Below, piece after piece: positions 10,131 through 28,420 of a stretch of DNA of 64,000 nucleotides. The first letter of the stretch is position 1, and each line of letters begins with the position of its first letter. A program made the translations under genes and the position numbers. This DNA is from Thermosinus carboxydivorans Nor1. Lineage in GTDB: Bacteria; Bacillota; Negativicutes; Sporomusales; Thermosinaceae. Where the stretch lies: contig NZ_AAWL01000006.1 in assembly GCF_000169155.1 (NCBI RefSeq), positions 62,001-126,000 of the forward strand. Reading direction: 5' to 3'. The notes under the pieces were generated by a model. That model had not been told where the DNA came from. It saw nothing but the letters and a program-made list of their open reading frames with translations, and did no database searches.

Positions 10131-10970
10131 CTAACGCGGTATCCACCAGCCGTCATACTGCTTATATTGTTGGCGCAAGGCATATAATTGGTTACGGCTT
10201 GCTATATATCGTCCCTTGATTTCTTCCAACAGAGCGCCGTGCTCCTTCATACCAGCAAGGGAAAACCGGGAATGTTCCCGCCGGTAAAACCGTACGGCAA
10301 ACCGGCCGTCCACAAAATGCAGCTGGCCAGACGCCCCACACAGCGGGCAGTATACGGCTCCGTCAGGTGACAGGCGCAACAGGGAACTTGCGCATTCCGG
10401 GCATGAGCACCCGGTCGCCTCTTCTGCCGCTTCCACCCCTGGCAAAAGACGCTGCGCCAGCTGTCTTGCCCTGGCCAACACTTCCGGTCTGACAACTTCG
10501 CCTGGATTGGCCGCCTGCACGGTCATGCTGCCGACAACGTCGAGATGGAGAAACCGGGCGAAATTAACAGCTGCTTCCCGGGCATAGCCATCCCACCCCG
10601 CGACACCATAAGTTACTGCCACCACGCATTTTTTACCCGTAAATTCATCCCCATTCTGAAGAACTGAAATCAACCGGTCGCCAATCATCTTTAAACTGGT
10701 GTGAGTACCAAGAAAATAACACGGCGTTCCGATGATGATCGCGTCTGCCGTTCGGATATTGTCTAGCAAAAACGACAAGTCATCGGCAATAACGCAGGAT
10801 TTATCCGCCCCCAGACAGGCATAGCATGCTCGGCACTGATCAATGTTAAGGTCCGGCAACCTAATCATGGCCTTTTCCACAATATCAGGCAGTGCCGCCA
10901 GCATTTCCTTGACCAGTATCTCTGAATTGCCCAGTTTGCGAGCAGAAGCCACCAATCCTAATACCCTCAT
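10131..10970 (-). CDS. Flavodoxin-like NAD(P)H-dependent FMN reductase with C-terminal zinc ribbon
   Basis: 279 residues from the ATG at 10970, 8 bases after GAGGGG. The N-terminal half is a flavodoxin-like fold (VLGLVASARKLGNSEIL phosphate loop; CRACYACLG; IIIGTPCYFLGTHTSLKM), the iron-sulfur-flavoprotein/NADPH-FMN-reductase group. Cys residues near 50-60 could hold a cofactor. Near residues 188-215 a rubredoxin-like CxxC pair of knuckles (CSCPEC, then CPLC) precedes a basic tail. The substrate is unknown; redox handling of metals or quinones is a guess. Confidence 0.8.
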   Translation of the reverse strand: MRVLGLVASARKLGNSEILVKEMLAALPDIVEKAMIRLPDLNIDQCRACYACLGADKSCVIADDLSFLLDNIRTADAIIIGTPCYFLGTHTSLKMIGDRLISVLQNGDEFTGKKCVVAVTYGVAGWDGYAREAAVNFARFLHLDVVGSMTVQAANPGEVVRPEVLARARQLAQRLLPGVEAAEEATGCSCPECASSLLRLSPDGAVYCPLCGASGQLHFVDGRFAVRFYRREHSRFSLAGMKEHGALLEEIKGRYIASRNQLYALRQQYKQYDGWWIPR

Positions 10971-11038
10971 CACTATTTCCCCTCTCTTGTGGTTGGTCTT
11001 GGTAATATGGCAAATTCTATCCAGCCAGGCTAAATCCT

Positions 11039-11233
11039 CTAGCTATAATAGCAACTTCCCCCGACAACCTCACCCCAAGAAAATCCCGCTATACTAGAAG
11101 AGCCGCCTATACCAGAGCAACGACCACAAATAGCCTTATCAAAGTCAGCATTTCGCACACAATTTCTGCCAGCGGCTTTGGCCTCATACATCAGCGCATC
11201 CGCCCTTTGCATCAATGTATCAATCGTATCTCC
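11039..11233 (-). pseudogene. 3' remnant of a GGDEF-domain (diguanylate cyclase) gene
   Basis: The reverse strand holds about 64 open codons with no start; a stop codon lies directly upstream. It reads LMQRADALMYEAKAAGRNCVR, the characteristic C-terminal helix of GGDEF domains, followed by an unrelated tail ending in TAG at 11039. The catalytic GGDEF motif and everything before it are gone. This is the tail of a deleted c-di-GMP synthase gene. Confidence 0.7.
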
Positions 11234-11326
11234 TTATTTTTTCTTGCTATTTGCTCTTTTATACTCTATAATTTTCTTATAACTACATAATATGACAAAA
11301 GACCGAAAATTTGGAGGTGCACGGCC

Positions 11327-11608
11327 ATGGCGATTTCTGATTTACTGGAAAAAATCAAAAACCAGCGGAAAAAATCAGAGAAAAAGGAAACCCTGAAAAA
11401 AGTAGCTGCCGGCGCGGCGATTGGTGCAGTAGTCGGGGTAGCGGCCGGCGTCCTTTTAGCGCCGAAAGCCGGTAAGGAGACGCGGGAAGACCTGGCCAAA
11501 GTCACCAAAGAAGCGGTAGAAAAAGCTAAGGAAAAAATTGACGAAGTCAAGGCCAAGCTCAAGGGACAAGCCCCGGAAGCGGTGGAACCGTCTTCGGAAA
11601 ATAAATAA
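11327..11608 (+). CDS. YtxH domain-containing protein
   Basis: 93 residues. GGAGGTGC precedes the ATG at 11327. A Lys-rich N terminus, one glycine/alanine-rich membrane helix (AAGAAIGAVVGVAAGVLLAP) followed by KAGKETREDL, then a long Lys/Glu amphipathic helix. This is the YtxH layout, seen in small general-stress proteins of Firmicutes, function unresolved. It is followed 21 bases later by a second membrane-anchored coiled protein, forming a two-gene operon closed by a strong terminator at 12028-12063. Confidence 0.85.
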   Translation: MAISDLLEKIKNQRKKSEKKETLKKVAAGAAIGAVVGVAAGVLLAPKAGKETREDLAKVTKEAVEKAKEKIDEVKAKLKGQAPEAVEPSSENK

Positions 11609-11629
11609 GTCCGGGAAGAAGGTCAGCTG

Positions 11630-12010
11630 ATGTATATTTCACTATATGACCTCGGACTGATTATTTTGTTTTGTCTGGCGTTGGTAGCCGGTTATTATCT
11701 CATCGTCACTCTCCGAGCCATACTGGCCGTTACCCGAACTATTGCTGCCATTATCGACAGCCGGCGCAGCGCCCTGGAAAAATCCATCGAACTCTTGCCG
11801 GAAATCTTAAATAATACCAATGAAGCTATTGTTGCCGTAAAAACAACCGCCGAGCCGGTCAGCTCTCTGGCCCGTTACCTTGAGAGCAACCTGACCGAAA
11901 CCGCGGACAATTTCGAGCGGCTGGCCGAAACGGTGCTGTTATATGCCCGCTGGGCCGCAGAAATAATAAAACAAGTTATGGCTCTATTGTCTAAAAAGGG
12001 CGATAAATAA
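11630..12010 (+). CDS. Small membrane-anchored protein, DUF948-like
   Basis: 126 residues: one N-terminal membrane helix (LGLIILFCLALVAGYYLIV) followed by a long helical, heptad-rich cytoplasmic or periplasmic region. This organisation resembles DUF948 proteins, which commonly sit beside YtxH genes, but no diagnostic motif was found, so the name is tentative. The ribosome site is GAAGGTC. It is the second and last gene before the terminator. Confidence 0.7.
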   Translation: MYISLYDLGLIILFCLALVAGYYLIVTLRAILAVTRTIAAIIDSRRSALEKSIELLPEILNNTNEAIVAVKTTAEPVSSLARYLESNLTETADNFERLAETVLLYARWAAEIIKQVMALLSKKGDK

Positions 12011-12027
12011 TTACCCAGTAAATGACT

Positions 12028-12063
12028 AAAAGCGGCTGGTGGTTTAAACCACCAGCCGCTTTT
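12028..12063 (+). terminator. Rho-independent terminator after the YtxH operon
   Basis: Perfect 15-bp inverted repeat (12028-12042 with 12049-12063) around the loop TTTAAA, GC-rich core and T tail, 17 bases after the stop of the DUF948-like gene. It marks the end of ordinary chromosome before the accessory island. Confidence 0.9.
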
Positions 12064-12191
12064 ACCTGGCTTCACCATCATCCCCTGATATAGTCGCAAA
12101 TCCCGACTTTGACAGTAAAACGCCATTTTTAGGGGGTTCAGGGCTCGAAAAGCCAATGATTTCAATAGTAATAATCAAATTGCTTTTTTTT

Positions 12192-12253
12192 GGAAAGCCT
12201 TCGGTAAAGAGTTTGAGCAGCCACCTCAAAGAGTCCTGACCGAAGGCTTTTCC
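12192..12253. repeat. Long imperfect hairpin at island edge
   Basis: GGAAAGCCTTCGGT at 12192-12205 is complementary to ACCGAAGGCTTTTCC at 12239-12253 (one bulged T). Inside, TTTGAG and CTCAAA form a second stem around CAGCCAC. It lacks a T tract on the 3' side in either direction, so it is not a standard terminator. It lies between the YtxH operon and the decayed gene and may be a mobile-element end or a structured RNA. The remaining bases from 12064 to 12305 show no gene. Confidence 0.5.
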
Positions 12254-12305
12254 ATTCCTCTGTTTTCATAATTAACCGAATTTTCCACAATTGATTTCCA
12301 TTATC

Positions 12306-12712
12306 CTATTTGGCCATTGATTTTGAGCAAGTCCAGGTCAAAAAATGTGAGCGGAAACATTTTACCTCATCCTTATACATTTCTTCATAACACCATGTAC
12401 AAACAGATGCAGGTGGAAGCTCCCAATTTTTAACTTTAGTATCATCCCTAAAAAATCGGGCGGAGTTGCATAGCACCTAATCTTTTATTTCCCGAAAGCG
12501 TTGATACTATAACAAAATAGGGGAATAAAATCAATATCATTGCAACTTTTCCCTTCGTTTTCTTCCTCCAAGTCCGTATCTTTATTTTCTCCGACCATGT
12601 CCCCAGGAAAGGAATACCTGCCTGAACAATATATATTTTCCCTCGGTTCTTTACACAAATGACCGTTCCACCCATTATCATGCCAGGCAAGCCTGGCTGA
12701 AAGATGTTTCAT
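12306..12712 (-). pseudogene. Frameshifted, truncated gene of a large accessory protein (SARLAWHDNGWNG N terminus)
   Basis: A good ribosome site (GAGGTGT) precedes the ATG at 12712. The reading frame begins MKHLSARLAWHDNGWNGHLC, followed by PxxNxYCxxxxSxPGD-like spacing. I recall this N terminus from large helicase/ATPase-type proteins in restriction and defence loci, but cannot confirm the family. After about 75 codons the frame breaks at FGK, continues in a second frame (GNKRLGAM) and a third (CNSARFFRDD to SMAK, stop at 12306), and the remaining gene is missing. Three consecutive frames of matching character show decay, not chance. Confidence 0.55.
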
Positions 12713-12826
12713 GATTTTGACACCTCACAAATCTTTAATGAGCAGACCCCATAGCCCATTTATTGAAAACTACCTGGTCAAAGCAAAAAGCTTCAACCAG
12801 GTATTCACAGTACATAGCAAACTTCA

Positions 12827-15800
12827 TTATTTGACACCGATCTTCTGTAAAAAGTCATCATAGTTTTTTGCCTGTTTAAATTGTACATCGTTTGCAACAG
12901 CTTTAAAATGAAGCTCCCCGCACCGTATTTTTGTCGTTTCAACTTTATTTAAATCATTTTTATCCTTATCTATCTTGGTTTCAACAATAAAGAAAAGCCT
13001 CGCCGTGTTATTGTCCCCTTTATAAATTACCGCCCAGTCAGGCGAATACTCTCCGTAAGGAGTATCGATTACAAAACCGCCTTTTTTGAGTTTAGTATAA
13101 AGGAGCACATTTTCATCCGCATCAAGCCTCTTGGCAAACTCCAGTTCACCTTTGCTGTCAAATTTATAATACTTATGAACTGCCCTCCGACTTTCTGGAT
13201 TGGTTTTAAAGACAAGGCTTGCCGCATCATCGAGCATACTTCTATCGATCTGCTCGGTTTCAAAGATAGTGGATTCATCAAATATATATCCGTCAATTGC
13301 CTCGTATCTGATAACCCCTTGAGCCATGAAATCGGTCAGCTTTTCCTGGAGCCTCTGCGTTACGAAGTCAAGGATATCCTGGTTTTTCAGCATGTCCTTC
13401 TTCTCAAGTCTTGAAATAATCCTGTATATGGCAAGACGGGGAAGCATGGTATGGTACATAATATAATTGATAATCTCAAATTCGCTTTTCCCTGTTTCCA
13501 TCCCCTCAAGCTCGTCAAAAAGTTGTTGTACAGATGGATCCGCCAGGCGGAATTTTTTTAACTCGTCAAATTCTGCTTTTCCTGTCTCAATATGGTATTC
13601 ATACCTTATGCGTTTATACCGAAGAGCTTCATCTAACTCCGATACACATTCTTCTATAAACGCCTTATTATCGATCTTCACCTGGTACATGGTTCGCTGC
13701 GACATCCGCTTGCTTAACTCTTTCAGCAGTTTATCGAAATACTCCTCGGAAATATAGCTGTGCTTGCCATTTTCTACAGGTTCTTCATCTCCGTTCTTGA
13801 TCGGAATCTTTCTGGTACCCTTGGCAAGCATCGCTTCAACAAACTTTTCCTTCAACATGATACTGTGTTCCTGGAGGGTTTCATTAGTGAAAGTAATGGT
13901 TTCAATTTTCCTGGCATCTCTGGTAAGGACACCATCATTATTGATAATCCCCTGCTCTAAAAGTTCCTGCTTAAAGAGTTCTGCTAGCTCCATAATCTTG
14001 TTTTCAGGAATACCAGCGTTTTTAAGCGTAGTATAGATTACATCATAGGTAACCTCATCCTTGTTAAATCCAGCCTGTTCGTTAAAATCCTGCTGGAGCG
14101 CCGCTGCGAAATGGTCGTAATAATCATTGGCAATGACGGTCAGTTCATTTACTTCACTATCTGTGCAGCGGTTACCATATATATCAACAGGAAGCCTTAA
14201 ACCTCTACCGATCTCCTGCTTTTTGGCAATATCGGAACCGCTCTTCTTCAGAGTACAGAGAGTGAACACATTGGGATTGTCCCAACCTTCCCGCAGGGCG
14301 GAGTGGGAGAAAATAAAAGCCAAAGGCTCTTCAAAGGAAATCAGTTCGTCCTTTTTCTCCAGGATCAGCTCAATCCCCCTGTCAATATCCTCCTGGGATT
14401 TGGCTTTCAACTTTTCTTCATCCATAATGTTTTCCCAGTTTTCGATCTCAACCGCATTCTTATTTTTATCAACGGCGAAATAGCCTTCCCTGACTCTGTA
14501 AACATCCTTGTATTCCTTAAATAGCTCTGGATACTCCTTAAATACCTTATTCCACCTGTCATCAGTAATTATCTTGGCATATTCTTCATCAAAAATTCTC
14601 AGATATTCCCCTCGGCCATCGGGGGCGCTGCTGTCCCTGTATTTATTTACAGCATCAATGAAGAAAAGGGTGAGTACCTTTATTTTATGTCCTTTTCTCA
14701 GGATTTTGTACTGCTTATCCAGGTGGCTCTTAATGGCAAGCCTGATCTGGATCCTTATTATTTCTTCCTCACTCATATTTACATTGCTTTCCCCGACAGC
14801 AAGCTCCAACACATCATCCCACTTGCCAATCTTAAGCTTTTTCAGCTTATGGGGATCTTCCATGACAATCATGTTTCGATATTGGGCAAGGTTGCCCGAG
14901 CACTCATACAGGGAATCTCCGCCGCGGACTTTGAATTGTTTCGTACGGATAACCCCGCCCTGTTCAACACAAAATATCTCGATTTTGGCATACAAATCCT
15001 TGGTAAACTCCACATAGCGGATATAGGGGTAATCTTTGGGTATGGTGCCATGCACCGTCTTAACCTCAATCTTTTTAACCAGGTCATTCTGGTAAGCGTC
15101 ATAGGAATCCAGTTTATATACCTGGTTGAAAAGCCGTTTATGGGTGGCAGAGTATCTCAGTATAAATAAAGGGTTAAGCATTTCAATGGCCGTAAGAGAA
15201 GCGCTCTTTTTCTTTGCAGTACCTTCAATCTTTTGCGGCTCATCGATAATAACAATAGGGCTTATGTACTTGATATCCTCCCAGAGAATTTGGCCGTATT
15301 CGTCTGCCTGGCGGATTTTATTGGTGTCCTTGTTAAAAGCCTGGATGTTCATCACCACTATGCTTAAATCCCTGCTTTCCACAAAGCTGCTGACTCTGCC
15401 CAAATTATTTGAATCATAGACAAAAGCGTGGTTCTTTATGTCAAGCCCGTCGTAGAGGGCCTTGAAATGTTCCCTTAACATTTCAATACTCTTCTCAACG
15501 CCTTTTCTGATAGCGATGCTGGGTACAACAATCATAAACTTAGTAAAACCATAAGTCTTGTAAAGCTCCAAGATAGTCCTCAAGTAAACATAGGTTTTGC
15601 CTGTACCCGTTTCCATTTCAATTGTAAAGTTGTTACCCTTCAGCTCATTATCCATAAACAGCATGTTTCTACGCTGAACTTCTTGGAGATTCTTTAAAAG
15701 CCTTGATGGTTTCACAATTTGAGGATTGCGGACGGGGTCACCTTCGCCAATCTTCTTTATTCTGTTAACATTGCGGTATATCGTTCCTTCGTCCTGGCGG

Positions 15801-15892
15801 CTGACACCTTTAAAAAGGTCAACCACTGAATAAATGGCATCAAGCTGGTATTTCAGTTTGTCATCAAATTGAAAGTTAATACGGCTGGCCAC
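12827..15892 (-). CDS. Type III restriction enzyme, Res (helicase-nuclease) subunit
   Basis: 1021 residues, usual Res length. SF2 motor motifs in order: Walker A METGTGKTYVY (near residue 93), DEAH-like box IIDEPQKI (near 216), SAT motif RYSATH, and motif VI QEIGRGLRLP. The C terminus holds a PD-(D/E)xK nuclease core (SPDWAVIY, then FIVETKID). Res translocates or switches on DNA after Mod recognises unmethylated sites and then cleaves. The GTG start follows GGGGGTGG. It starts 12 bases after the Mod stop, in the same operon. All key residues look intact. Confidence 0.93.
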   Translation of the reverse strand: MASRINFQFDDKLKYQLDAIYSVVDLFKGVSRQDEGTIYRNVNRIKKIGEGDPVRNPQIVKPSRLLKNLQEVQRRNMLFMDNELKGNNFTIEMETGTGKTYVYLRTILELYKTYGFTKFMIVVPSIAIRKGVEKSIEMLREHFKALYDGLDIKNHAFVYDSNNLGRVSSFVESRDLSIVVMNIQAFNKDTNKIRQADEYGQILWEDIKYISPIVIIDEPQKIEGTAKKKSASLTAIEMLNPLFILRYSATHKRLFNQVYKLDSYDAYQNDLVKKIEVKTVHGTIPKDYPYIRYVEFTKDLYAKIEIFCVEQGGVIRTKQFKVRGGDSLYECSGNLAQYRNMIVMEDPHKLKKLKIGKWDDVLELAVGESNVNMSEEEIIRIQIRLAIKSHLDKQYKILRKGHKIKVLTLFFIDAVNKYRDSSAPDGRGEYLRIFDEEYAKIITDDRWNKVFKEYPELFKEYKDVYRVREGYFAVDKNKNAVEIENWENIMDEEKLKAKSQEDIDRGIELILEKKDELISFEEPLAFIFSHSALREGWDNPNVFTLCTLKKSGSDIAKKQEIGRGLRLPVDIYGNRCTDSEVNELTVIANDYYDHFAAALQQDFNEQAGFNKDEVTYDVIYTTLKNAGIPENKIMELAELFKQELLEQGIINNDGVLTRDARKIETITFTNETLQEHSIMLKEKFVEAMLAKGTRKIPIKNGDEEPVENGKHSYISEEYFDKLLKELSKRMSQRTMYQVKIDNKAFIEECVSELDEALRYKRIRYEYHIETGKAEFDELKKFRLADPSVQQLFDELEGMETGKSEFEIINYIMYHTMLPRLAIYRIISRLEKKDMLKNQDILDFVTQRLQEKLTDFMAQGVIRYEAIDGYIFDESTIFETEQIDRSMLDDAASLVFKTNPESRRAVHKYYKFDSKGELEFAKRLDADENVLLYTKLKKGGFVIDTPYGEYSPDWAVIYKGDNNTARLFFIVETKIDKDKNDLNKVETTKIRCGELHFKAVANDVQFKQAKNYDDFLQKIGVK

Positions 15893-15904
15893 GGTTCCAC
15901 CCCC

Positions 15905-17869
15905 TTAAATGAACTCAACCCTGTAGGCCTTTTTCTTTTCGCCGCTGTTCTTTTTCATCTGGGCTTCAAGCCTGAGCATGGTGTTGGTTTTAAGGGTTAT
16001 GTCATCGCCGAAAGCGCTGTCGCGGAAGATTATCTTCATGGGCATCGGTTCTATGGTCGCAATTTTATCAATAATACTTTCGGTTACATTCTCCTCAAGG
16101 CAGACTACCACCGTATCGGCAAAAATATAGGTACGTTCGCCGATCTCAGACAGCTTTTCCACTTTTGCAGACAGCGGAATATCCCTGTGCCTTAACAATA
16201 TCTCATAAACCACATCGATGTCGGTAAAGCCTGGGTTGAAGTCAAGCCTGTCTTTATCTGACATCATGCTTTCTTCCAAGGTCATGTTTTCAGACTTGAT
16301 TGCCTCGCTAAACCAGCGGATGTTAGTATCCGCTACCCTGAAGACCTTAAAGCCTATGTCCAGATTTTCAATGCCTTCTTTATCCTTATTTTCTTCTTTT
16401 ATCTTTTCCCCAGCCCTGCGGATACGTTCTTTGCCGATTTCACATATATTTTTAAATCCTGCCTTATATGCTTCACTTTTTTCGTCACATGGTTCGGGAA
16501 GCTGCACCATGATAAACTTACGGTTGCCTCCGTCTTCGGCATTAAGCTGCATAACTGCGTGGGCAGTAGTGGCAGAGCCAGAAAAGAAGTCCAAAACTGT
16601 AAATTCTTTATTAAAATAGCCAATTGTATTAATAAGGTACTTTAATAAAGAAACAGGTTTTGGATAATCCAATATATTTTCTACATTAAATATTGATAAC
16701 AATTCTTGGTAAGCATCTTCATTTGTTCCAACACTCATTTTATTGTCTAATATATCTACAGGTCTCTTAATTTTCTCATCCTGATCCGCTCTAAATACAT
16801 TAAACCCAAATTTTGACGATAAGGAAACTCTAGTACCCAATTCTAATTCTTCGTTTAGCTTCGATTGTGTCCAGACAAATGGGCCAGTTACAGTTATTTC
16901 ATTTATAACCAAATTATTTTTTATAATAATATCTGTCTCAAAAAGCAATGAAGATGTACCTTCTCCATAAACACCCGCTTGATAAATCCCATCATTAAGC
17001 GTAGTTTCAACTTTTTTTGCAGGAAATACTAAAGTCTTCGGAGCATTAGTTCTTTTTACTAATGGTTGCCATTTATTACTATATGCTTCTTCTCCAAACA
17101 ACTCAATTTTTAAAGCATTTTTTCCAAATAGCAAAATATATTCAACCATATTTCTAATTGTTTTCGATAAATGACTACCCTTTTTCTTTTTAACCCATGT
17201 AAAACAAGCAATAAAATTTTCTTCCCCAAAGATCTCATCACAAATCTTCTTTAAATTGTGTACTTCATTATCATCAATACTAATAAATATAACCCCATCT
17301 TCCGTCAACAAATCCTTTGCCACCTTCAGTCTCGGATATATCATCGACAGCCAGTTAGAGTGAAATCTGCCATTGCTTTTCTGATTAACAATAAGCCGCT
17401 CTCCATATTCATCCTTTTCTCCCTCTAACAAAGCATTTTCTTCTTCGCTGACCTTGAAATCGTCCCTGTAAATAAAATCATTACCCGTATTATAAGGCGG
17501 ATCTATGTAAATCATTTTAATCTTGTTATAATAGCTGTTTCGGAGCAGCTTCAAAACCTCCAGATTATCCCCTTCAATGTACAAATTCTCAGTAGTGTCG
17601 GGGTTTTTACTATCCTCTGGAATGTATTTCAGCGTCCGTCCTACAATATCCGTGTTTGCCAGCCGCTTTGCATCCTCTTTTCCCGCCCAGCCAAGCTCAT
17701 AGCGTTCGGACAGTTTTTCGCTGGCGGTTTCAAACTGGCCCAATTCAGCTTTCAAAGCCTCAAAATCAACCTGCCCGTCTTTCACTACTGACGGGAAAAC
17801 TTGCGCCAGTTTTTTTACATTTTCACTGATCGGATTAAATATCTCTTTCTGCACTTTGGGAAACTCCAC
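15905..17869 (-). CDS. Type III DNA methyltransferase, Mod subunit
   Basis: 654 residues. The beta-class order of motifs is present: catalytic DPPYNTGNDF at residues 123-132, target-recognition region in the middle, and the AdoMet motif DFFSGSATTAHAV near residue 425. Mod methylates adenine (N6) on one strand and specifies the Res subunit's site. The segment 16620-17230, covering the recognition domain, is visibly more AT-rich than both flanks, with different codon use, suggesting replacement by recombination. The GTG start follows TAGGAAA. It lies 12 bases after the DUF4391-like gene stop. Confidence 0.93.
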   Translation of the reverse strand: MEFPKVQKEIFNPISENVKKLAQVFPSVVKDGQVDFEALKAELGQFETASEKLSERYELGWAGKEDAKRLANTDIVGRTLKYIPEDSKNPDTTENLYIEGDNLEVLKLLRNSYYNKIKMIYIDPPYNTGNDFIYRDDFKVSEEENALLEGEKDEYGERLIVNQKSNGRFHSNWLSMIYPRLKVAKDLLTEDGVIFISIDDNEVHNLKKICDEIFGEENFIACFTWVKKKKGSHLSKTIRNMVEYILLFGKNALKIELFGEEAYSNKWQPLVKRTNAPKTLVFPAKKVETTLNDGIYQAGVYGEGTSSLLFETDIIIKNNLVINEITVTGPFVWTQSKLNEELELGTRVSLSSKFGFNVFRADQDEKIKRPVDILDNKMSVGTNEDAYQELLSIFNVENILDYPKPVSLLKYLINTIGYFNKEFTVLDFFSGSATTAHAVMQLNAEDGGNRKFIMVQLPEPCDEKSEAYKAGFKNICEIGKERIRRAGEKIKEENKDKEGIENLDIGFKVFRVADTNIRWFSEAIKSENMTLEESMMSDKDRLDFNPGFTDIDVVYEILLRHRDIPLSAKVEKLSEIGERTYIFADTVVVCLEENVTESIIDKIATIEPMPMKIIFRDSAFGDDITLKTNTMLRLEAQMKKNSGEKKKAYRVEFI

Positions 17870-17881
17870 TTTCCTAACCCC

Positions 17882-18610
17882 CTATGCCTTCTCGATAATT
17901 TTGGCAAACTCGGCGTACAGCCTTTTTAACTCTGAATTAATCCTTGCGCTTTCCGCCACAGTCTTTGCGAATTTCTGCTCTTTTTTTAGCTGTTCTACCC
18001 GTTTAAGCCTGTCATAGAGCTTTAACATATCGTCCCTGTTATACCATACCTTTGAGACAAGCAATGCCCTCGTCCCAGACCATAAGGAAAGGTTGGATAT
18101 GATATACGCCTTAATCATCATTTCAAGGTAAAAGTCCAGCTTGTTGCCCCTGTTTTGGATTCTGTCAAACTCAATGTACTGCCGCATCATAGTATTTGTT
18201 TCGTCTGCAAACTGCATGGAAGTAGGGGAGGAGTAAACCATATCCTCGATAACCACCTGCGTCCTGTCGTTTAAGTTCAACCTTTTGTGACAAAAACAAA
18301 AAACTTGACAATTGGTATGGTCATAAAATCTGATTACGCATAACGGTTTGACCAACCGCTGCATGATGTTTCCTACAAAGTTGGCATTTTTCAACTCGGT
18401 CAAACGGACACTGAAAAACAGAATCGCCTGGCAGTCGTATTCGTCATTGATCAGCGAGGGGATGTCCTCCCCTGCAATCTGATATAACAGCTTTATTTCA
18501 ATTACTGCTTCCCTGAACCTTTTTTTCTCCTTTTGGGTCAGGTCAGCAGTCATAAATGTCTTTATGGTAAATGTCTTATTTATCTCATATACACTGGGTA
18601 TCGCCAGCAT
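17882..18610 (-). CDS. DUF4391-like protein of the helicase/type III locus
   Basis: 242 residues from the ATG at 18610, after GGGGTGA; the frame extends upstream but overlaps the helicase gene. It starts MLAIPSVYEINKTFTIKTFM, then has a mixed alpha/beta domain with a conserved-looking IEIKLLYQIAGE segment (Glu-x-Lys) that resembles a nuclease-type motif, and a C-terminal Lys/Glu coiled-coil (RLKRVEQLKKE...). From memory this is DUF4391, a family found beside such helicases and Mod/Res genes; function unknown. It lies 10 bases after the helicase gene stop, so it belongs to the same operon. Confidence 0.7.
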   Translation of the reverse strand: MLAIPSVYEINKTFTIKTFMTADLTQKEKKRFREAVIEIKLLYQIAGEDIPSLINDEYDCQAILFFSVRLTELKNANFVGNIMQRLVKPLCVIRFYDHTNCQVFCFCHKRLNLNDRTQVVIEDMVYSSPTSMQFADETNTMMRQYIEFDRIQNRGNKLDFYLEMMIKAYIISNLSLWSGTRALLVSKVWYNRDDMLKLYDRLKRVEQLKKEQKFAKTVAESARINSELKRLYAEFAKIIEKA

Positions 18611-18620
18611 AGCTTCACCC

Positions 18621-21600
18621 CTATTCCACCACCAGGAAAGATATAAGCTCAAAATCATCGGAGCTTGAGTTGGCAAATTCGTTGTTATATCCTCCGAAGT
18701 CAAAGATGGTCATTTCCGCTTTTTTATCCTCATCCCCCTGGATTGCTTCAATCGCCTTATTGAGCAACCTTGAATAAAAGGACATATCCTCGGCATTTTT
18801 GGTACGGCTGTTAAATTTTTTGAACAACTCGGGATCAGGCTTTGCTTTGCCATAAGCAATCTTCCTGAACTCCCTTAAGGCCTCACGGGCATTGGCACTG
18901 CCGTAGTAAATCTCACCATCATTGCTGATATACATTACATAGTACGGGTAAAGCGAGCTTTCGTTTGCTGGTTTTGCCACCTCGTTTTGATGCCTAAAGC
19001 AAAAGATGCAGCCCTTCTTTTCCCCTTCAGTTACAGAGTACACACCCCTGGGTACCCGCATAATCTCTGTGTTATTCTTGATATATCTCGAAAGCTCATA
19101 AATGTAATCATTCATATTCAGGTCGGTCAGGGAGATGTTATCATTCAGTTCATCAATTTCGATAACCTCTTTCTGCAACCGTTCCAGCTGTTTTTTTCTG
19201 AAGAGAAAATCATTCATTTCAGGGGAGAGAAAATCCTCATCCCCTGAGGCCGTTAAGTTTACCGCCATCATTTTCCCTTTTACCCTCTGTTCAAGCTGTA
19301 AATAATCATTGAGAGCCAGATTGGGAAAGAAGTTGATCATAGCAATCTTTTTGTTTTGGCTGCCAATGCGGTCTATCCTGCCGAAACGCTGGATAAGCAC
19401 AACGGGATTCCACTGGATGTCATAGTTAATGACGGCATCGCAGTCCTGCAGGTTTTGTCCCTCGGAAATACAGTCAGTGGCAATAAGCACATCGATCTGC
19501 TCATGCTTCGGCAGGTCCTGACCCAGCTTAGACTTTGGCGAAAAGTGTCGCAGAATGGTGTTAAACTCACAGCGGATATTTTTCATCGTTGTCCGCGGAT
19601 CTCCAGAACCAGTAATGCATGCTACATTAATTCCATGTTTTGAAAGCTCATCAGCAATGCTGTCATACAGATAATTAGCAGTATCAGCAAAAGCAGAAAA
19701 GATAAGCATTTTTCTGTTTCCTGGGTTATAAGGGGTCTTGATGATCTTGTTAACAATAATTTCTTCAAGCTTTTTCAGCTTTGCGTCCCTTTTTTCATTC
19801 AATACCTGTAAAACATTCCTGTACAAACCTTCCAACATTTCCTTGTCGTAGTATAAATCCTCCAGGAAATCCGCTGCAATCAAATGTTCCACCTTAATCT
19901 CATATTTATAGTCAAGGGTAACATCTTCTTCAACATATTCTTCTCCCGCAAGCTCCACTTCTCCCGAATTACAGCGTGATATGACCTCAATATAGCTGTC
20001 AATTCTGGCGATAAGCCTCCTGATGGTTTCACCAAAAGCAAAAACAGAGCTTTCGAGGCGTTTGAACAAGTTAAATCTATGCAAGCGGGCATTGATAAGC
20101 TCGCGATTTTCGTGGTAGAACAACACCCTCTCCCCATAGACGGTCTGGTATTTTTTACGGTAATATTCCTTGTATTCGGACTTTATGTAGGACATAGGAG
20201 AATAAACCGCCAGTTTCAATGACTCCAATATTTCATTCGTTTCCGCAAAATTAAGCAGTTCTCCTTTTGTATCTATTTCTGGATAATATGTCTCTGGCGG
20301 TAGTTTTTCTGGAAATTTGCCAATATTGTCATTTCCGTAGTATCCAGTAATATGTTTTCTGCTCCGAGAAATAGTAACCATCTCCAGCAGTTTATAGAAG
20401 TCCGCGGGAAGCCTGTCCAGGAGATCGTTTTTTGACCGTTCTTCAGTTTTAAGCCAGTCATTGATTTCCTTCTGCGTTTTGCGGAGTAGGTTGGATATAC
20501 TTGGTATTCCCGCTTCTTCAAAGGCATGGTCTCTATCGGCAGTGATAATGCTTATTTGGTTTTTCAGGTCTATGAGCGAGTTGTTGACGGGAGTTGCCGA
20601 CAGCATCAGTACCTTTGTCCCATGTCCCTTTTTAATAATATCATTCATGAGTTTCATATAGCGGCTCATATGTTCAATGTCTTCGTTTCGGTTGCGGAAG
20701 TTATGGGATTCGTCGATGACCACCAGGTCGAAATTGCTCCAGTTCACACGGGATAAATCTATACCGCTTCTGGAATAACCCTTTGTCCTTGTCAAATCTG
20801 TATGGCAAAGGATTTTATAGTTAAAGTTATCCTTTATAAAGGCGTTGTCTATGTATGGGTTTTTGAAGGAATCCCAGTTATCATAGAGCTTGGCAGGGCA
20901 TAAAACCAGCACATTATCTTCCCGAAGCTCGAAGTATTTAATTACGGCCAAAGCCTCAAAGGTTTTTCCCAGACCAACACTGTCGGCAATGATGCACCCA
21001 TTGTATTTATTTATCTTTTGAATGGCGGAAACAACAGCATCTTTCTGAAAATCATAGAGACTGTTCCAGATGACAGACTTTTTAAAACCTGTTTTATCCT
21101 TTTCAAAGCGCTCCACACCACTATCAAGCTGACTGCCGAAAAGCTCTTTCAGTGTAAAATAGTACAGGAATTCGGGAGAATAGTCTTTGTAAACATAATT
21201 AAGGCTTTCAAGCAACTGTGTTTTGTAATCCTCGGTATAATCATCGCTGTTCCAGATGATATTAAATAACCTCTGAAAATGCTCAAGCTGCGATTTTTCG
21301 GTGACAGCAGAATTAAAATGGATGGGCGCCAGCTCTCCACGCTTTGTTTTCCTCGATACTTCAAGGGATGATGTGCCATGTATAGCAATCTCATCATCAA
21401 TCATGATAATGTTCCCTGTTATTTTCCCTGGGTCTTTTGCCTTACGCACATTTACATGTTTTTGGATAAAATCATACATGGATTTCGCTTTGGCAAAATG
21501 CTGGAGCTTGTTTTTCTGGATGATGTCATACGAATTAAAAAACAAGTCTGTATCGTTTTGCCTAATCTCAAACTCACGAGGCAGTTCGCGCCCAGCAGGC

Positions 21601-21785
21601 ACATAAGCAGTATTGCGTATAATAAAATTGATTTTCTCAACATTTTTAAGATTTTTGGAAAGTTCGCTAAATACCGATAATGTAAGTTTGTCATTAATGA
21701 TATTTATTTTCCTGCCCTTTCTTTCTTTTAGCACTTCATTTATTTTTGCTATCAATTGTTCATTAGAACTTATAACTTCATTCAT
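18621..21785 (-). CDS. SNF2-type SF2 helicase with degenerate PLD-like N terminus
   Basis: About 1054 residues from the ATG at 21785, 8 bases after a G-rich site; ATGs at 21803 and 21827 are less well supported. The N-terminal ~200 residues (MIDDEIAIHGTSSLEV...) resemble a degenerate phospholipase D-like domain. The motor has Walker A DSVGLGKTFEAL, DEAH-type box VIDESHNF, SATPVNNSL, and motifs V/VI (ATDCISEGQNL, QRFGRIDRIG). Proteins of this type remodel or translocate on DNA in phage-defence loci. It is the first gene of the four-gene operon that continues with the DUF4391-like, Mod and Res genes. Confidence 0.85.
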   Translation of the reverse strand: MNEVISSNEQLIAKINEVLKERKGRKINIINDKLTLSVFSELSKNLKNVEKINFIIRNTAYVPAGRELPREFEIRQNDTDLFFNSYDIIQKNKLQHFAKAKSMYDFIQKHVNVRKAKDPGKITGNIIMIDDEIAIHGTSSLEVSRKTKRGELAPIHFNSAVTEKSQLEHFQRLFNIIWNSDDYTEDYKTQLLESLNYVYKDYSPEFLYYFTLKELFGSQLDSGVERFEKDKTGFKKSVIWNSLYDFQKDAVVSAIQKINKYNGCIIADSVGLGKTFEALAVIKYFELREDNVLVLCPAKLYDNWDSFKNPYIDNAFIKDNFNYKILCHTDLTRTKGYSRSGIDLSRVNWSNFDLVVIDESHNFRNRNEDIEHMSRYMKLMNDIIKKGHGTKVLMLSATPVNNSLIDLKNQISIITADRDHAFEEAGIPSISNLLRKTQKEINDWLKTEERSKNDLLDRLPADFYKLLEMVTISRSRKHITGYYGNDNIGKFPEKLPPETYYPEIDTKGELLNFAETNEILESLKLAVYSPMSYIKSEYKEYYRKKYQTVYGERVLFYHENRELINARLHRFNLFKRLESSVFAFGETIRRLIARIDSYIEVISRCNSGEVELAGEEYVEEDVTLDYKYEIKVEHLIAADFLEDLYYDKEMLEGLYRNVLQVLNEKRDAKLKKLEEIIVNKIIKTPYNPGNRKMLIFSAFADTANYLYDSIADELSKHGINVACITGSGDPRTTMKNIRCEFNTILRHFSPKSKLGQDLPKHEQIDVLIATDCISEGQNLQDCDAVINYDIQWNPVVLIQRFGRIDRIGSQNKKIAMINFFPNLALNDYLQLEQRVKGKMMAVNLTASGDEDFLSPEMNDFLFRKKQLERLQKEVIEIDELNDNISLTDLNMNDYIYELSRYIKNNTEIMRVPRGVYSVTEGEKKGCIFCFRHQNEVAKPANESSLYPYYVMYISNDGEIYYGSANAREALREFRKIAYGKAKPDPELFKKFNSRTKNAEDMSFYSRLLNKAIEAIQGDEDKKAEMTIFDFGGYNNEFANSSSDDFELISFLVVE

Positions 21786-21997
21786 TCCGTAAGCCCCCAC
21801 CATATCTTCGCCTATTTTATGTCTCATGAATGCGTGTCAGTGAATTTTTCGGCATTACGCACATACAACCCTCTTGCAGTTTAACCTCTCTCTAATCTAT
21901 TTTGTTGCATTTTGAAATATTTGTCCGGCTATTGCTCAAATTATGTGACCGTAACCTGATTTTACTGGGCCGCTTGGCTTGACATTATTTAGGCAAT

Positions 21998-22358
21998 TTA
22001 ATGGAACTGGAATTTATCCTGTGGGATTTTTCTTTGTTCAGCCATACTTCACAACATTGGTTGCTAATTTAATTAGCTTTTCTGGCACACCTCCCCGGGT
22101 AAGAGCAGTGTCTTTCTCTCCATCTACCTGCCGCAGTTACTCTGGGCAACCTTCGGTAGCAAGGACTTTGCTTTGTAACGCAAGCTCAACCAACTGCCCC
22201 TAGCCTCATTTGCGGTTCGTTTCCCTCAGAACGAAGATTTGCCGCCGACTTCCTTAGGATCCCATCTCGCAATGGGCACCATTGTCTTAGGCTACAGCTA
22301 CTGTTACCTTCGCCGTTCGGGACTTTCACCCTAGAGACAACGCCCATGCCGAGCACAC
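21998..22358 (-). mobile_element. Truncated group IIC intron (5' ribozyme part plus start of maturase ORF)
   Basis: On the reverse strand the element starts at the group II 5' signature GTGTGC (22358), followed by CGGCATGGGCG, then the domain I blocks AGGGTGAAAGTCCCGAAC, AATGAGGCTAGG, AAGTCCTTGCT and TTACCCGGGGAGG. These match, from memory, the sequence order of the Oceanobacillus group IIC intron. A maturase ORF then begins at 22045 (MAEQRKIPQDKFQFH) but stops after 15 codons. Domains V and VI are absent. The intron starts about seven bases beyond a terminator stem, the expected target of group IIC introns. Confidence 0.85.
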
Positions 22359-22364
22359 ATTAAA

Positions 22365-22399
22365 ATAACTTCCGATAACTATAAATTATCGGAAGTTAT
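22365..22399 (-). terminator. Terminator hairpin used as intron target
   Basis: A 14-bp stem (22365-22378 with 22386-22399) around a 7-base loop, followed on the reverse strand by TTTAAT and then the intron 5' end. No gene that it would terminate remains upstream on this strand; it is probably left from a deleted gene. Confidence 0.7.
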
Positions 22400-22492
22400 A
22401 ACCGAAAATACAGTCATGAATTTTGAAACACGAGAAAAACAAAAAACAGTTCACAAATTTTATAATTTCAAATAATAGGACAACCCGCCATA

Positions 22493-22740
22493 GTAGAGTC
22501 CGTATAATTGTGTAAAAAGGAATTAACAAAAGAAGAGCCAATTCAAAATCCTCAGTTAGAATGAAGCGGCAACAACATTCAACGAGAGGTGATTTTGAAA
22601 TGGCTCAATACCAGATTAACATTGATTCGAAAATTTTGCATCAACTTTTTTAAGCAATGCAAAAGATAACGGAATACTTTCGATTAAGGCCGCCATCCGT
22701 TACGGCGGCGGCTGCCCAATACCGCCTCCGTCAGTTGAAG
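22493..22740 (+). mobile_element. IS256-family element remnant (left end and transposase N terminus)
   Basis: A terminal-repeat-like sequence at 22493-22524 (GTAGAGTCCGTATAATTGTG and on) is followed by a ribosome site GAGAGGTG and an ORF from 22600, MAQYQINIDSKILHQLF, typical of IS256-type transposase N termini, which ends at a stop after 17 codons. A second frame then reads SNAKDNG, continuing the homology after a frameshift, before all similarity is lost. The rest of the element is gone. Bases 22741-22862 show no gene. Confidence 0.7.
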
Positions 22741-22862
22741 TGTAGAGGACGTTGGGCCTTTTGAAGATACTATGAAGGAGTATATTCAGCGTTTTATAAT
22801 TGGAGAAAAGTCGTAGATTTAACTGCTGCTTAAGAACATCTAGCATTCATGTTTTTTCAAAA

Positions 22863-22898
22863 AACGCCTCCCCTTGAGCAATCTCAAGGGGAGGCGTT
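22863..22898 (-). terminator. Terminator after the VWA gene
   Basis: Perfect 16-bp GC-rich stem (22863-22878 with 22883-22898) with a 4-base loop. On the reverse strand it is followed by TTTTTTG, 8 bases beyond the stop of the VWA gene. Confidence 0.92.
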
Positions 22899-22905
22899 CG
22901 TTAGA

Positions 22906-23514
22906 CTACTTAGTTTTTCGGGGACTTAGGTATTGATTTCTTTTCTCGCATACCGCTTCGTTTACCTTTAGGTACATAGCCTCGATACCAGCAGTAGAAG
23001 CCTCAAAATTAAAGGCATTGTCAATATGAATGCCAATTTTGTCGGCTTCTTGTTCGACGTCGATATTGGCGCCGAGGAAGATAAACTCCCATCCATATTG
23101 TTCTTGCTGGCGGCGTATCAGTTCTTTAACTTTTCGGTAGGTGAATTCACGGCTGGCATTTTCCAAACCATCTGTCGTAATAACAAATATTACCTTACCG
23201 GGCCGTTCACTTTCATTGGTTTTTGACAGCCTGTAATTAACATCCACAATAGTCTTGCCAATCGCGTCGAGAAGAGCCGTACACCCGCGGACATAATATT
23301 CGTTTTCGGTTAGTTTAACACCTTTGACATCGATGCCGTTCCACAAAATTTCATATTCGTGATCAAACAAAATCACCGTAAGTAGTGTCCGCCCTTCCAA
23401 TTGGGCCTGTTTTGCGATAAATTCATTGAAACCCCTTATGGTAGACCTTTCAAGTCCCCCCATCGAACCGCTCCGGTCGAGCAGAAAAATTATTTCGGTT
23501 AAGTTGGCGTTCAA
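22906..23514 (-). CDS. von Willebrand factor A (VWA) domain protein
   Basis: 202 residues from the TTG at 23514, which sits at a proper distance from AAGGGG; a GTG at 23523 is only inside that site. A single VWA domain with a complete metal site: DRSGS (residues 13-17), Thr79 in GCTALLDA and Asp115 in ITTDGLENAS. No signal peptide, so it is cytosolic. Such stand-alone TerY-like VWA proteins usually act as metal-dependent scaffolds in stress or defence complexes. It is transcribed divergently from the HTH-like gene at 23613, across a palindromic operator. Confidence 0.88.
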   Translation of the reverse strand: MNANLTEIIFLLDRSGSMGGLERSTIRGFNEFIAKQAQLEGRTLLTVILFDHEYEILWNGIDVKGVKLTENEYYVRGCTALLDAIGKTIVDVNYRLSKTNESERPGKVIFVITTDGLENASREFTYRKVKELIRRQQEQYGWEFIFLGANIDVEQEADKIGIHIDNAFNFEASTAGIEAMYLKVNEAVCEKRNQYLSPRKTK

Positions 23515-23529
23515 ACGTATCACCCCTTA

Positions 23530-23567
23530 ACTTGTTTTGTTTGCTATAATAATAGCTAAAAACAAGT
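23530..23567. promoter_or_regulatory. Palindromic operator over divergent promoter
   Basis: ACTTGTTTT at 23530-23538 mirrors AAAACAAGT at 23559-23567 around a TATAAT at 23545-23550. It lies between the divergent VWA and HTH-like genes, as expected for autoregulation by the HTH-like product. A second small hairpin, GTCGCC/GGCGAC (23576-23592), sits just before the GGAGG ribosome site of the gene at 23613. Confidence 0.55.
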
Positions 23568-23612
23568 AAGAAGTGGTCGCCTGCGAGGCGACAATGCGGA
23601 GGTACGGCCATA

Positions 23613-24110
23613 ATGCTAAGTAAAGAAATACGCCAGGCACTCGCAGAATATGTTAATCAACATAAAAATATATACACTACATACGCTCTCCAGGACAATA
23701 CACGCGACTACGGTCTTGCTTATAGTATCGCTTACGAAGAAGTTAAAGATTTTATAGAAACCAAGCAAAAGCGAACATTTAAGCAGGTCTTATTCCATTT
23801 TATTGACAGCAAAAACATGAGCGACGCGGAAATATATCGCAAGGCAAATATCGACCGCAGGCACTTTCATAAAATCCGCTCAAAACCCGATTATCGTCCC
23901 GGCAAAAGCACGATTATCGCCATCGCCTTGGCCCTCGAACTTGATAAAAACGACACGATAACGCTGTTAAATTCCGCCGGTTATACTTTGTCGGACAGTG
24001 ACGCGTTTGATTTGGTAATCCAATTTTGCCTGGAGAAAAAAATATATGACATCCATGACGTCAATTTGGCACTGGATTTTATGGGGTTAAAACCGTTGAC
24101 TGGGTGTTAA
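23613..24110 (+). CDS. Helix-turn-helix-like protein divergent from the VWA gene
   Basis: 165 residues, GGAGG ribosome site. The middle (residues 60-125) reads TFKQVLFHFIDSKNMSDAEIYRKANIDRRHFHKIRSK..., which follows the pattern of a lambda-repressor-like HTH (AEIYRKANIDRRHFHKIRS as recognition part) and then GKSTIIAIALALELDKNDTITLLNSAGYTL, the usual closing helices of XRE-type regulators. The N-terminal 50 residues are unassigned. Probably a DNA-binding regulator of itself and of the VWA gene through the palindrome between them. Confidence 0.65.
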   Translation: MLSKEIRQALAEYVNQHKNIYTTYALQDNTRDYGLAYSIAYEEVKDFIETKQKRTFKQVLFHFIDSKNMSDAEIYRKANIDRRHFHKIRSKPDYRPGKSTIIAIALALELDKNDTITLLNSAGYTLSDSDAFDLVIQFCLEKKIYDIHDVNLALDFMGLKPLTGC

Positions 24111-24215
24111 AAAATAAGGCAGGGTAATGCTGTAAAGCTTTATTATCTATGATTGGTTTGGCCCTTTGGATTTCGCTCTCCACATGGTGCCGGTATAGCA
24201 CCTCCAGCCCACTGC

Positions 24216-24300
24216 TCAAGTGGTTTTATTGGCCACGCTCCCTTCAAAAACCTGGTGGGCAATAGGAATACCTTCAGACGTCACTAATAATCCGATGTTA
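24216..24300 (-). pseudogene. Transposase fragment (IS1634/IS4-like)
   Basis: The reverse strand reads IGLLVTSEGIPIAHQVFEG then SVANKTT and a stop. This is the conserved catalytic-core segment around the first Asp region of IS1634/IS4-type DDE transposases (LLV..EGIPIA..VFEGN). Nothing upstream or downstream continues convincingly. It is a decayed insertion sequence. Confidence 0.55.
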
Positions 24301-24372
24301 ATTTTAATTCATAATTCATAACGTTACGCATAGTTTTCATTTGATGATAAATTTCAGTGGCAAAGTTTTCGA

Positions 24373-24750
24373 TTAGCTCGCGTTCCCAGATGATATTTCG
24401 CCATTTCGCCGGTATTTGCCCACCCCGTAATAAGCTCCGGCCAGTTGACCGTATACCGCACCGGTAGTGTCGGCGTCATCCCCTAAGTTTACCGCCAGCA
24501 ATGCTCCCTCTTCAAAAGTATTCGAGTGATAAAACGCCCATAGACCACATAACCACTTCCCTTTATTTGGGGTGGTTTTTTTATTTTATTTGCAGGCATC
24601 AATGCACTCCGCGGCCGCATGGGTCGTACGAGAGCTATCAGCACAATACTTCATTGCCAACGGCGAATTATTGGCGTAGTATAACGCTACCGGGGCCAGC
24701 CGCATGATCGACCCGTTTCCGGCAATATGTGGATCTGCCATTGACGTATC
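24373..24750 (-). pseudogene. ADP-ribosylglycohydrolase family pseudogene
   Basis: Two pieces on the reverse strand are recognisable: AGNGSIMRLAPVALYYAN (24586-24750, then a stop) and [22 protein letters not shown] (24373-24510). Both are signature segments of DraG/ADP-ribosylglycohydrolases; the second holds the metal-binding Asp residues. The N-terminal ~100 residues and the stretch between the pieces are missing, and a terminator-like hairpin lies between them. The living gene would have removed ADP-ribose from a protein or nucleic acid. Confidence 0.75.
24551..24582 (+). terminator. Terminator-like hairpin inside the pseudogene
   Basis: AACCAC (24551-24556) pairs with GTGGTT (24572-24577) and is followed by T5. 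It interrupts the ADP-ribosylglycohydrolase relic, so it probably arrived with an insertion that has since been deleted. Confidence 0.5.
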
Positions 24751-24764
24751 AAAAGATATCTTGC

Positions 24765-24812
24765 TTGCCTTTTGGCAAAGCTTGATTTATAATTTTATCG
24801 AACAAATGTTCT
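24765..24812 (+). promoter_or_regulatory. SOS-controlled promoter with LexA box
   Basis: A -35 TTGCCT at 24765-24770, 17 bases, and a -10 TATAAT at 24788-24793 form a strong sigma-A promoter. CGAACAAATGTTCT at 24799-24812 matches the Firmicute LexA/DinR operator (CGAAC-N4-GTTCG) in all but the last base and overlaps the expected transcription start. It precedes the small-protein/polymerase operon by 16 bases. Confidence 0.85.
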
Positions 24813-24827
24813 TAATTGGAGGTCGCT

Positions 24828-25058
24828 ATGGGTAAGGTTTTTGTCCAAATTACGGCTGAGCATAATGTAAACGGAGAAATCCGCCCCCTGTCCCTGCGCT
24901 GGACCAACGGGCGCATCTACCCGATCGACCGAATCCTGGATGTCCGGCCGGCCGCTTCCCTTAAAGGCGGTGGACAAGGCATGCGGTATACCTGCCGGAT
25001 TGCCGGCAAGGAAGTGTATTTGTTCTGCGACGAAGGCCGCTGGTTTATTGAAAGGTAA
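24828..25058 (+). CDS. Small conserved protein co-expressed with the Y-family polymerase
   Basis: 76 residues from the ATG at 24828, after TTGGAGGT; an upstream TTG in frame lies within that site. The protein is a compact beta-rich domain (MGKVFVQITAEHNVNGEIRPLS, RWTNGRIYPIDRILDVR, GMRYTCRIAGKEVYLF, DEGRWFIER). I do not recognise an enzyme motif. It is the first gene of an SOS operon and lies 21 bases before the polymerase, so an accessory role in translesion synthesis is a fair inference. Confidence 0.8.
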   Translation: MGKVFVQITAEHNVNGEIRPLSLRWTNGRIYPIDRILDVRPAASLKGGGQGMRYTCRIAGKEVYLFCDEGRWFIER

Positions 25059-25079
25059 GCGCCGTTTGGGGGATGTAGC

Positions 25080-26321: not shown

Positions 26322-26323
26322 GC

Positions 26324-27076
26324 TCACCAATCAATATGGTCGGGATATTCCACGCCACTAATCCTTATGTCCTCGATTGGACAGTTATATTCTTGCGCCG
26401 CCTGTAAAATCTCATTCCGCAAATCGAGATATTCACTGCCCGGCTCCGTCAGAAGTTTTGCCATTTTCGATAGGTTTTTCAGGCGTTTTTCTTTACTCAT
26501 CTTCAAAAACCGGCAATTGAGCAGATCCACATACTGCGTAGCATAGTTGTAACACACGATGTATTCTTTATTCAGGCTGCCCATCATCCGGCTGTATACA
26601 CCGGCAGGAACCACGCTTTTAAGGCATTTGGCAACCGCCGCTTGCAACATACGCACCTGGGCGATCGAGTCGTCCCAAATGTTACGTCTGTTTAGCATTA
26701 TGTCATAAGTTGTCTTGGCCTGCTTGCGGGCATAAAGTTTGACAAAATCGTTTAGCGCGACCATAACGAATAACATTTCCGGCCACAGCACATTAATCTT
26801 CAGATAAACGTTTTTACTGCTGGCAATGACCGCCATTTGCCGCATTTTGTCGGCATCCATACCATTGTCGACAAATTCGATGTCGCGATGCCCCATCAGC
26901 GCGTGTCGCAAGTCATAACAAACCGCTAGCACCCTAAGGCCGGCACCAGACAATGCTGGCTCCTCCTCTTCGTCGCCAACAACGGTATGCAATGCATCGT
27001 ACAGCGCTTTAAAATCCAAGTAATCGCCGTAAATCGCCACTCCTGCATTATTGGGGGTATTGGTCACATATATCAC
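26324..27076 (-). CDS. Conserved protein of unknown function (possibly DUF6904)
   Basis: 250 residues from a GTG; a weak AAAGGA lies upstream. The opening MIYVTNTPNNAGVAIYGDYLDFKALYDALH resembles what I recall as DUF6904 (low certainty). The rest is mostly helical, with Met/Leu-rich stretches, WPEMLFVMVALNDFVKLYARKQ, and a basic C-terminal helical region. No enzyme motif, signal peptide or membrane segment is seen. It is convergent with the polymerase gene and has no operon partner. Confidence 0.65.
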   Translation of the reverse strand: MIYVTNTPNNAGVAIYGDYLDFKALYDALHTVVGDEEEEPALSGAGLRVLAVCYDLRHALMGHRDIEFVDNGMDADKMRQMAVIASSKNVYLKINVLWPEMLFVMVALNDFVKLYARKQAKTTYDIMLNRRNIWDDSIAQVRMLQAAVAKCLKSVVPAGVYSRMMGSLNKEYIVCYNYATQYVDLLNCRFLKMSKEKRLKNLSKMAKLLTEPGSEYLDLRNEILQAAQEYNCPIEDIRISGVEYPDHIDW

Positions 27077-27328
27077 GCCGGTGTTCGTCCTTTCTTTTCA
27101 TATATTTTTCCATAATATTTAGAGCTGTAGCAAAGCCAATGGGGCAGGAAATAAAAAATCAGTCGATAATTATTGGCCATCCATGCATATTAATACCAGC
27201 CATCTTTATAACTTATATTTGACGATTGATTCAGTGCACTAGCCAATGGTTGCCACCAAAGAAGTAATTCGTGGCGCCGCCGTTATTGTAACTATAAAAG
27301 AGTTATGCTGTTAAAATGTGACCACTCT

Positions 27329-27355
27329 AAAAATTAGGAGCAAGTCCTAATTTTT
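27329..27355 (+). terminator. Terminator-like hairpin between 27076 and sigK
   Basis: AAAAATTAGGA (27329-27339) pairs with TCCTAATTTTT (27345-27355) over a 5-base loop, giving T-rich 3' ends on both strands. No gene ends here on the plus strand, so it likely belongs to the lost insertion sequence. The rest of the stretch 27077-27461 contains no gene. Confidence 0.6.
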
Positions 27356-27388
27356 ACACACCAATTAGGGCTTGATTCTTTTTTGGAC

Positions 27389-28418: not shown

Positions 28419-28420
28419 TT

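Follow-up and report, generated by a model that had tools for sequence, protein, structure and literature searches.

Are a helicase and a small DUF4391 protein, encoded together with mod and res of a type III restriction-modification system, components of this system or just its neighbors? The question is raised by Thermosinus carboxydivorans Nor1, of which we analyzed a stretch of 64,000 nucleotides (contig NZ_AAWL01000006.1, positions 62,001 to 126,000), in the following termed the window. All four genes are intact and reside on the minus strand in a HEL-DUF4391-Mod-Res arrangement, where HEL denotes the helicase, and are spaced 10, 12 and 12 bases apart. A G-rich Shine-Dalgarno-like stretch lies ahead of every one of the four starts. 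A first-pass annotation had described four genes on the same strand with short gaps, and its coordinates and spacing proved to be exact. We assign a probability of roughly one half to a four-component type III-like system in which a SNF2 motor and its DUF4391 partner work together with Res. The features of the locus are as follows:

18621-21785, minus strand: HEL, SNF2-family SF2 motor with PLD-like N-terminal domain, 1054 amino acids, ATG start (PF00176 9e-14, Helicase_C 4e-16)
21246-21785, minus strand: PLD-like N-terminal domain of HEL, approximately residues 1-180 (alignment to the homologue in locus L055)
21396-21419, minus strand: site of the lost HxKx4D motif in HEL, reading TGNIIMID (alignment with homologues)
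20961-20984, minus strand: Walker A of HEL, DSVGLGKT, residues 268-275 (invariant in both homologue alignments)
20703-20714, minus strand: motif II of HEL, DESH, residues 358-361 (invariant in both homologue alignments)
17882-18610, minus strand: DUF4391 protein, 242 amino acids, ATG start (PF14335 8.4e-50)
15905-17869, minus strand: Mod, type III DNA adenine methyltransferase, 654 amino acids, GTG start with an alternative GTG at 17854 (PF01555 1.7e-30, PADLOC MTase_III 5e-188)
12827-15892, minus strand: Res, SF2 motor with C-terminal PD-(D/E)XK nuclease, 1021 amino acids, GTG start (ResIII 6.5e-16, RE_endonuc 5.8e-27, PADLOC REase_III 5e-204)
12771-12803, minus strand: terminator-like hairpin directly 3' of Res with a 14-pair stem and a T-rich tail (a consensus match only)

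Linkage of the four genes

When 84,980 species genomes were scanned with a helicase alignment, at least 581 relatives came up, the best 80 of which were kept as loci. Sixty-two of these are informative, i.e. they extend at least 3 kb beyond the helicase gene, while the others end at contig ends. Genes for DUF4391, Mod and Res follow the helicase in the same order and on the same strand in 62 of 62 informative loci, and as the loci were picked by the helicase alone, this count is a fair test of linkage. A HEL-DUF4391 pair devoid of Mod and Res was not found wherever the sequence extends far enough. The four-gene arrangement is far beyond chance, and the earlier proposal of one transcription unit forming a composite defence system is supported by it. 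The neighborhood comparison that had been suggested as a check also came out in favor of this proposal, the pair never being seen alone and Mod/Res of the same clade occurring without it only in two small subclades.

The hosts of the best 80 helicase loci belong to Bacillota, Pseudomonadota, Bacteroidota, Myxococcota, Verrucomicrobiota, Chloroflexota, Fibrobacterota and other phyla. Within 299 genomes from the phylum of the window, DUF4391 is present in 25 and a match of the type C3a139, a PADLOC model treated below, in 20. Inspection of up to 20 kb around these matches showed HEL-DUF4391-Mod-Res on one strand in all intact loci on sufficiently long contigs, with L072, L075, L076 and L059 representing decayed or broken copies. 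Four-gene sets account for about half of the clear type III Res genes in the sampled phylum. The set is also found on mobile elements. Matches to HEL were obtained by tblastn in 102 plasmids, among them plasmids of Enterococcus, Listeria, Acinetobacter and the archaeal Methanomethylovorans, and the inspected regions hold all four genes. Prophage phi1605 carries the set as well, with its DUF4391 protein annotated as a chemotaxis protein. In Escherichia coli, HEL is matched in 88 of 5,426 complete genomes, and each of three divergent examples inspected contains the four genes, one of them at the leuX tRNA gene.

Spacing is not uniform within the operon. Among the 89 loci with all four genes, the median distance between HEL and DUF4391 is 1 base, and in 83 of 89 it does not exceed 50 bases, whereas inserts longer than 250 bases are present between DUF4391 and Mod in 29 loci and between Mod and Res in 28. 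HEL and DUF4391 thus look like one unit. The inserts encode RhuM, BRO-N/DinD-like, SLFN AlbA_2, DUF1016 nuclease and Fic proteins as well as OLD plus DUF2130, SIR2 plus HerA and GmrSD plus a UvrD-like helicase, such that the operons look like docking places for further defence genes. The nested defence modules are located as follows:

L213, 13945-16963: SIR2 and HerA
L131, 13997-17289: OLD and DUF2130
L206, 5796-11117: GmrSD and UvrD-like helicase

Regulators encoded just upstream of the set vary, with a MAD1-like HTH protein in one E. coli and WYL or HTH proteins in others (L217:10234-10413, L131:9093-9998, L215:13096-14001). WYL regulators have been reported beside type III systems (PMC9122601), and the WYL gene upstream of the set in L131 fits this association.

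Properties of the four proteins

With a PF00176 match (9e-14), SF2 motifs that are invariant in an alignment of 49 homologues and a SNF2 fold, HEL belongs to the SNF2 family, just as the first-pass annotation had it. Its nearest structures in the PDB are RapA (best Foldseek match, E 1e-13) and SNF2 motors, with VIA-align Z scores of about 18 for the latter. The PLD-like N terminus, also proposed previously, went undetected when the window protein itself was searched against Pfam. The fold is nevertheless accepted because the N-terminal region of the homologue from L055, to which the window residues align, matches PLDc_2 (2.6e-11) and RE_NgoFVII (1.7e-7). HEL does not contain the HxKx4D motif of HKD (PLD) nucleases. 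HxK is retained in a single one of 82 homologues (L055) and lost in the other 81 including the window protein, so that this domain is most likely a dead nuclease retained as a scaffold.

HEL is matched over its full length by PADLOC model C3a139 'HKD+Snf2' (PDLC01075, 2.5e-276). The same model also matches a 1293-residue protein encoded beside a split DruE (L077:10829-19516) that bears no similarity to the HEL profile. The only helicase of the phylum sample that seemed to lack the other genes (G253) was dismissed, as its protein has no detectable similarity to this profile and adjoins DruE. With a match to a Druantia-linked protein in which no helicase homology is detectable, the PADLOC model appears to mix two families.

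The DUF4391 protein is matched by PF14335 over residues 2-234 with 170.3 bits (curated cut-off 29.9). Its AlphaFold2 model (mean pLDDT 96.9) features an alpha/beta N-terminal domain followed by a C-terminal helical hairpin. Foldseek found nothing below E 0.27 in the PDB, and no convincing solved relative emerged from fold searches in the PDB and BFVD; the VIA matches mostly cover the C-terminal hairpin and may reflect just a common arrangement. The family evolves fast, with a median pairwise identity of 21%, and its alignment was too variable to serve for a pattern scan. K109, R110 and Y161 are among the better conserved positions, which do not make up an obvious catalytic set. An adaptor would be the simplest reading of this protein, going by its sequence and model. 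Relatives were found neither in viral contigs nor, by tblastn with the window protein, in plasmids, because the family diverges so fast, and the helicase is the better bait. PADLOC has no model for DUF4391.

Mod is an N6-adenine methyltransferase according to its DPPY motif, S-adenosylmethionine-binding motifs and PF01555. DPPY is present in 82 of 82 Mod proteins from four-gene loci, and the window protein matches the structure of EcoP15I Mod (4zcf, 1.3e-58). Res shows the conserved motifs METGTGKT, DEPQ, SATH, QEIGRGLR and PD...ETK. The pair mod/res is adjacent and co-directional with a gap of 12 bases and encodes the expected domains, which makes the system a type III system in the broad sense. 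It is not of the EcoP1 type, as Res and Mod fall outside the EcoP1-type clade and the operon comprises more than mod and res.

A possible role for the pair in restriction

How closely the components have diverged together was assessed from pairwise distances across 82 loci. The correlation is highest for HEL and Res (rho 0.906), followed by Mod and Res (0.780) and HEL and Mod (0.772), with permuted maxima near 0.16. On resampling of loci, the HEL-Res value exceeds that for Mod-Res by 0.075-0.171, and core columns agree. Res is tracked better by the motor part of HEL (0.896) than by the PLD part (0.753).

Phylogenetic trees of Res and Mod agree in that the four-gene systems and five pair-less ones form one clade (support 100) separate from the EcoP1 type, with Res of this clade set apart by a branch of 2.8 changes per column. 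With the root assumed among the EcoP1-type rows, the trees contain three changes of the pair label, which we interpret as a single gain and two losses of the pair. In one pair-less lineage (L110, L114), the pair is replaced by another SNF2 gene, which is DrmD-like and located upstream of mod in the same orientation; the gene, encoding 979 amino acids, is intact in L245 and broken in L114. Locus L245 (2946-9742) encodes this DrmD-like protein together with a protein of 1279 amino acids upstream of a Mod from the four-gene clade. Within the canonical clade, plasmids of Lactococcus and Lacticaseibacillus contain a SNF2 gene after res, together with a ParB-like gene. In L219 (9738-12861) and L221 (5132-8297), genes for a ParB-like or unnamed protein and for the SNF2 helicase come after canonical Mod-Res, an independent pairing of type III and SNF2 genes. 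From these cases, SNF2 motors appear to have been recruited to type III systems on at least three occasions.

In textbook type III systems (Mod2Res1), a burst of ATP hydrolysis is followed by diffusive sliding until a second, inverted site is met (PMC4490356). For the four-gene system we propose a different course. Mod would, as is expected from its family, mark self DNA by methylating adenine within a specific, asymmetric sequence, and Res, by family and intact motifs, would be the ATP-driven nuclease cutting unmarked DNA. HEL and DUF4391 would make up a two-subunit accessory motor, HEL acting as a SNF2-type double-stranded DNA translocase with the PLD-like domain as scaffold and DUF4391 as its adaptor. 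This motor would act together with Res, most likely in that it drives the Mod-Res complex along DNA or clears its path, such that long-range communication between sites would no longer depend on passive sliding alone. A dependence of restriction on the pair is plausible from the sequence data. If movement were active, restriction might do without a head-to-head pair of sites, and the clade could represent a second, ancient branch of type III systems, a dual-motor machine of four subunits. We put this extension forward tentatively and consider it rather doubtful as it stands.

Several points weigh against a motor that works with Res. The pair-less L111, L118 and L226, the latter two forming one subclade, have no SNF2 gene nearby, indicating that the motor is dispensable. 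The distance correlations include shared ancestry and cover four-gene systems, and swapping of Mod for a new specificity is expected to lower the Mod-Res value independently. The existence of lineages that live without the pair is also what a safety part would allow. The pair may serve control or self-protection, clearing the cell's own DNA of Mod-Res or RNA polymerase by stripping or recycling, or aiding methylation by Mod, and thereby sparing the host damage by Res at replication or upon entry into a new cell. As the first genes in the operon, HEL and DUF4391 would be made before Res, and among solved structures HEL comes nearest to RapA, a recycler of RNA polymerase. Against this, HEL co-varies more strongly with Res than with Mod, and the replacement by a SNF2 gene of the defence-type DrmD family points to a role in restriction. 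We regard a control function as unlikely, albeit as the main competitor of our proposal.

That the pair is a separate backup defence which merely shares an operon with an ordinary type III system is a reading in which we place little trust. Whole defence modules do sit within the operon in L213, L131 and L206, but such inserts come and go, while the pair is present in every informative locus and never apart from Mod/Res; moreover, in the phylum sample, the genomes with DUF4391 and those with the helicase lead to the same loci. HEL might instead be a second nuclease whose PLD-like domain cuts DNA in addition to Res, in line with the HKD-helicase effectors proposed for BR systems (PMC12839542) and CxC/Pbe systems (PMC10853773) and with the HxK kept in L055, yet its absence from nearly all homologues including the window protein renders this highly improbable. 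Equally hard to credit is an ordinary two-gene type III system with two passengers that have no role in restriction. Mod and Res do possess all expected catalytic motifs and, judged by these, could work alone, but the linkage is invariant across phyla, the ATPase motifs of the helicase are invariant and divergence is correlated. We therefore retain the four-component system with an accessory motor as our preferred reading. To defence-finding models, the locus is no more than Mod and Res. Should the pair be required, numerous type III annotations lack components, and the activity would escape assays of Mod and Res by themselves. The system also opens to testing how kilobase-range communication is achieved by a type III Res that uses little ATP, and whether this is the task of a partner motor in this branch.

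Genomic setting and comparison with known systems

The GC content of the operon stretch amounts to 37-43%, with flanks near 50%. In a genome of the same genus (G299), the window flanks 10138-11046 and 27462-36884 are only about 0.5 kb apart, so that some 15 kb including the operon constitute an insertion relative to this genome (or a loss there); window positions 11047-27460 are absent from the matching site (L243). Elsewhere in the same genome (L244), window segment 24762-27108 directly adjoins 12187-12353, an arrangement expected if the two ends of a mobile unit, right and left, had been joined. Between HEL and a gene for a VWA-domain protein, a match to the Rfam group II intron D1-D4 model RF02001 is present at 22104-22276 on the minus strand (116 bits, E 7e-24) with no open reading frame for an intron reverse transcriptase nearby, pointing at a remnant or an intron lacking such a frame. 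The VWA gene (22906-23523, minus strand) is divergent from a gene for a small, possibly HTH-like protein without a Pfam match (23613-24110, plus strand), both lying in the same low-GC island. No link of these two to the four-gene set was seen in the relatives examined.

A description of the four-gene set was not found in the open papers searched, where C3a139 and PF14335 are not named; supplements and subscription papers were outside the search and earlier notice is possible. DUF4391 is named in one of these papers, but without a function, and neither HEL nor DUF4391 seems to have been characterized so far.

RapA, the RNA polymerase-associated SNF2 protein that recycles RNA polymerase, is unlike HEL in that it is encoded by a housekeeping gene, is free of a PLD-like domain and has no methyltransferase partner. 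DISARM resembles the set in that the SNF2 motor DrmD is encoded next to a DNA methyltransferase. Membership was rejected since HEL scores 158 with the DrmD model (cut-off 610) and drmA, drmB and drmC are absent among the four proteins and two neighbors scanned. Type-2 BREX-related (BR) systems, for which HKD-helicase fusions have been proposed as effectors, share a PLD/HKD domain N-terminal to a SNF2 motor and an adenine methyltransferase (PMC12839542). They use a DUF499 ATPase and DUF3780, whereas the window features DUF4391, type III Mod/Res and a lost HKD motif; with PglZ, BrxC and the DUF499 ATPase absent among the scanned proteins, affiliation with BREX or BR was rejected. In CxC-ABC/PbeABCD, too, a small partner protein accompanies a fusion of an HKD domain and a SF2 helicase (PMC10853773). 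This assignment was rejected as well, given that neither an ABC ATPase nor DndE is present and PbeA is not among the matches listed for the window protein.

Agreement is also seen with canonical type III enzymes, EcoP1I and EcoP15I (Mod2Res1), which have in common with the four-gene set a DPPY-type Mod, a Res consisting of SF2 motor and PD-(D/E)XK nuclease and the type III layout with mod before res. EcoP1 restriction is defined by mod and res (PMC3874151), and P1 contains just these two, whereas the set described here includes two extra obligate genes. It represents, as far as we found in the open literature, a new and widespread four-gene variant of type III restriction-modification.

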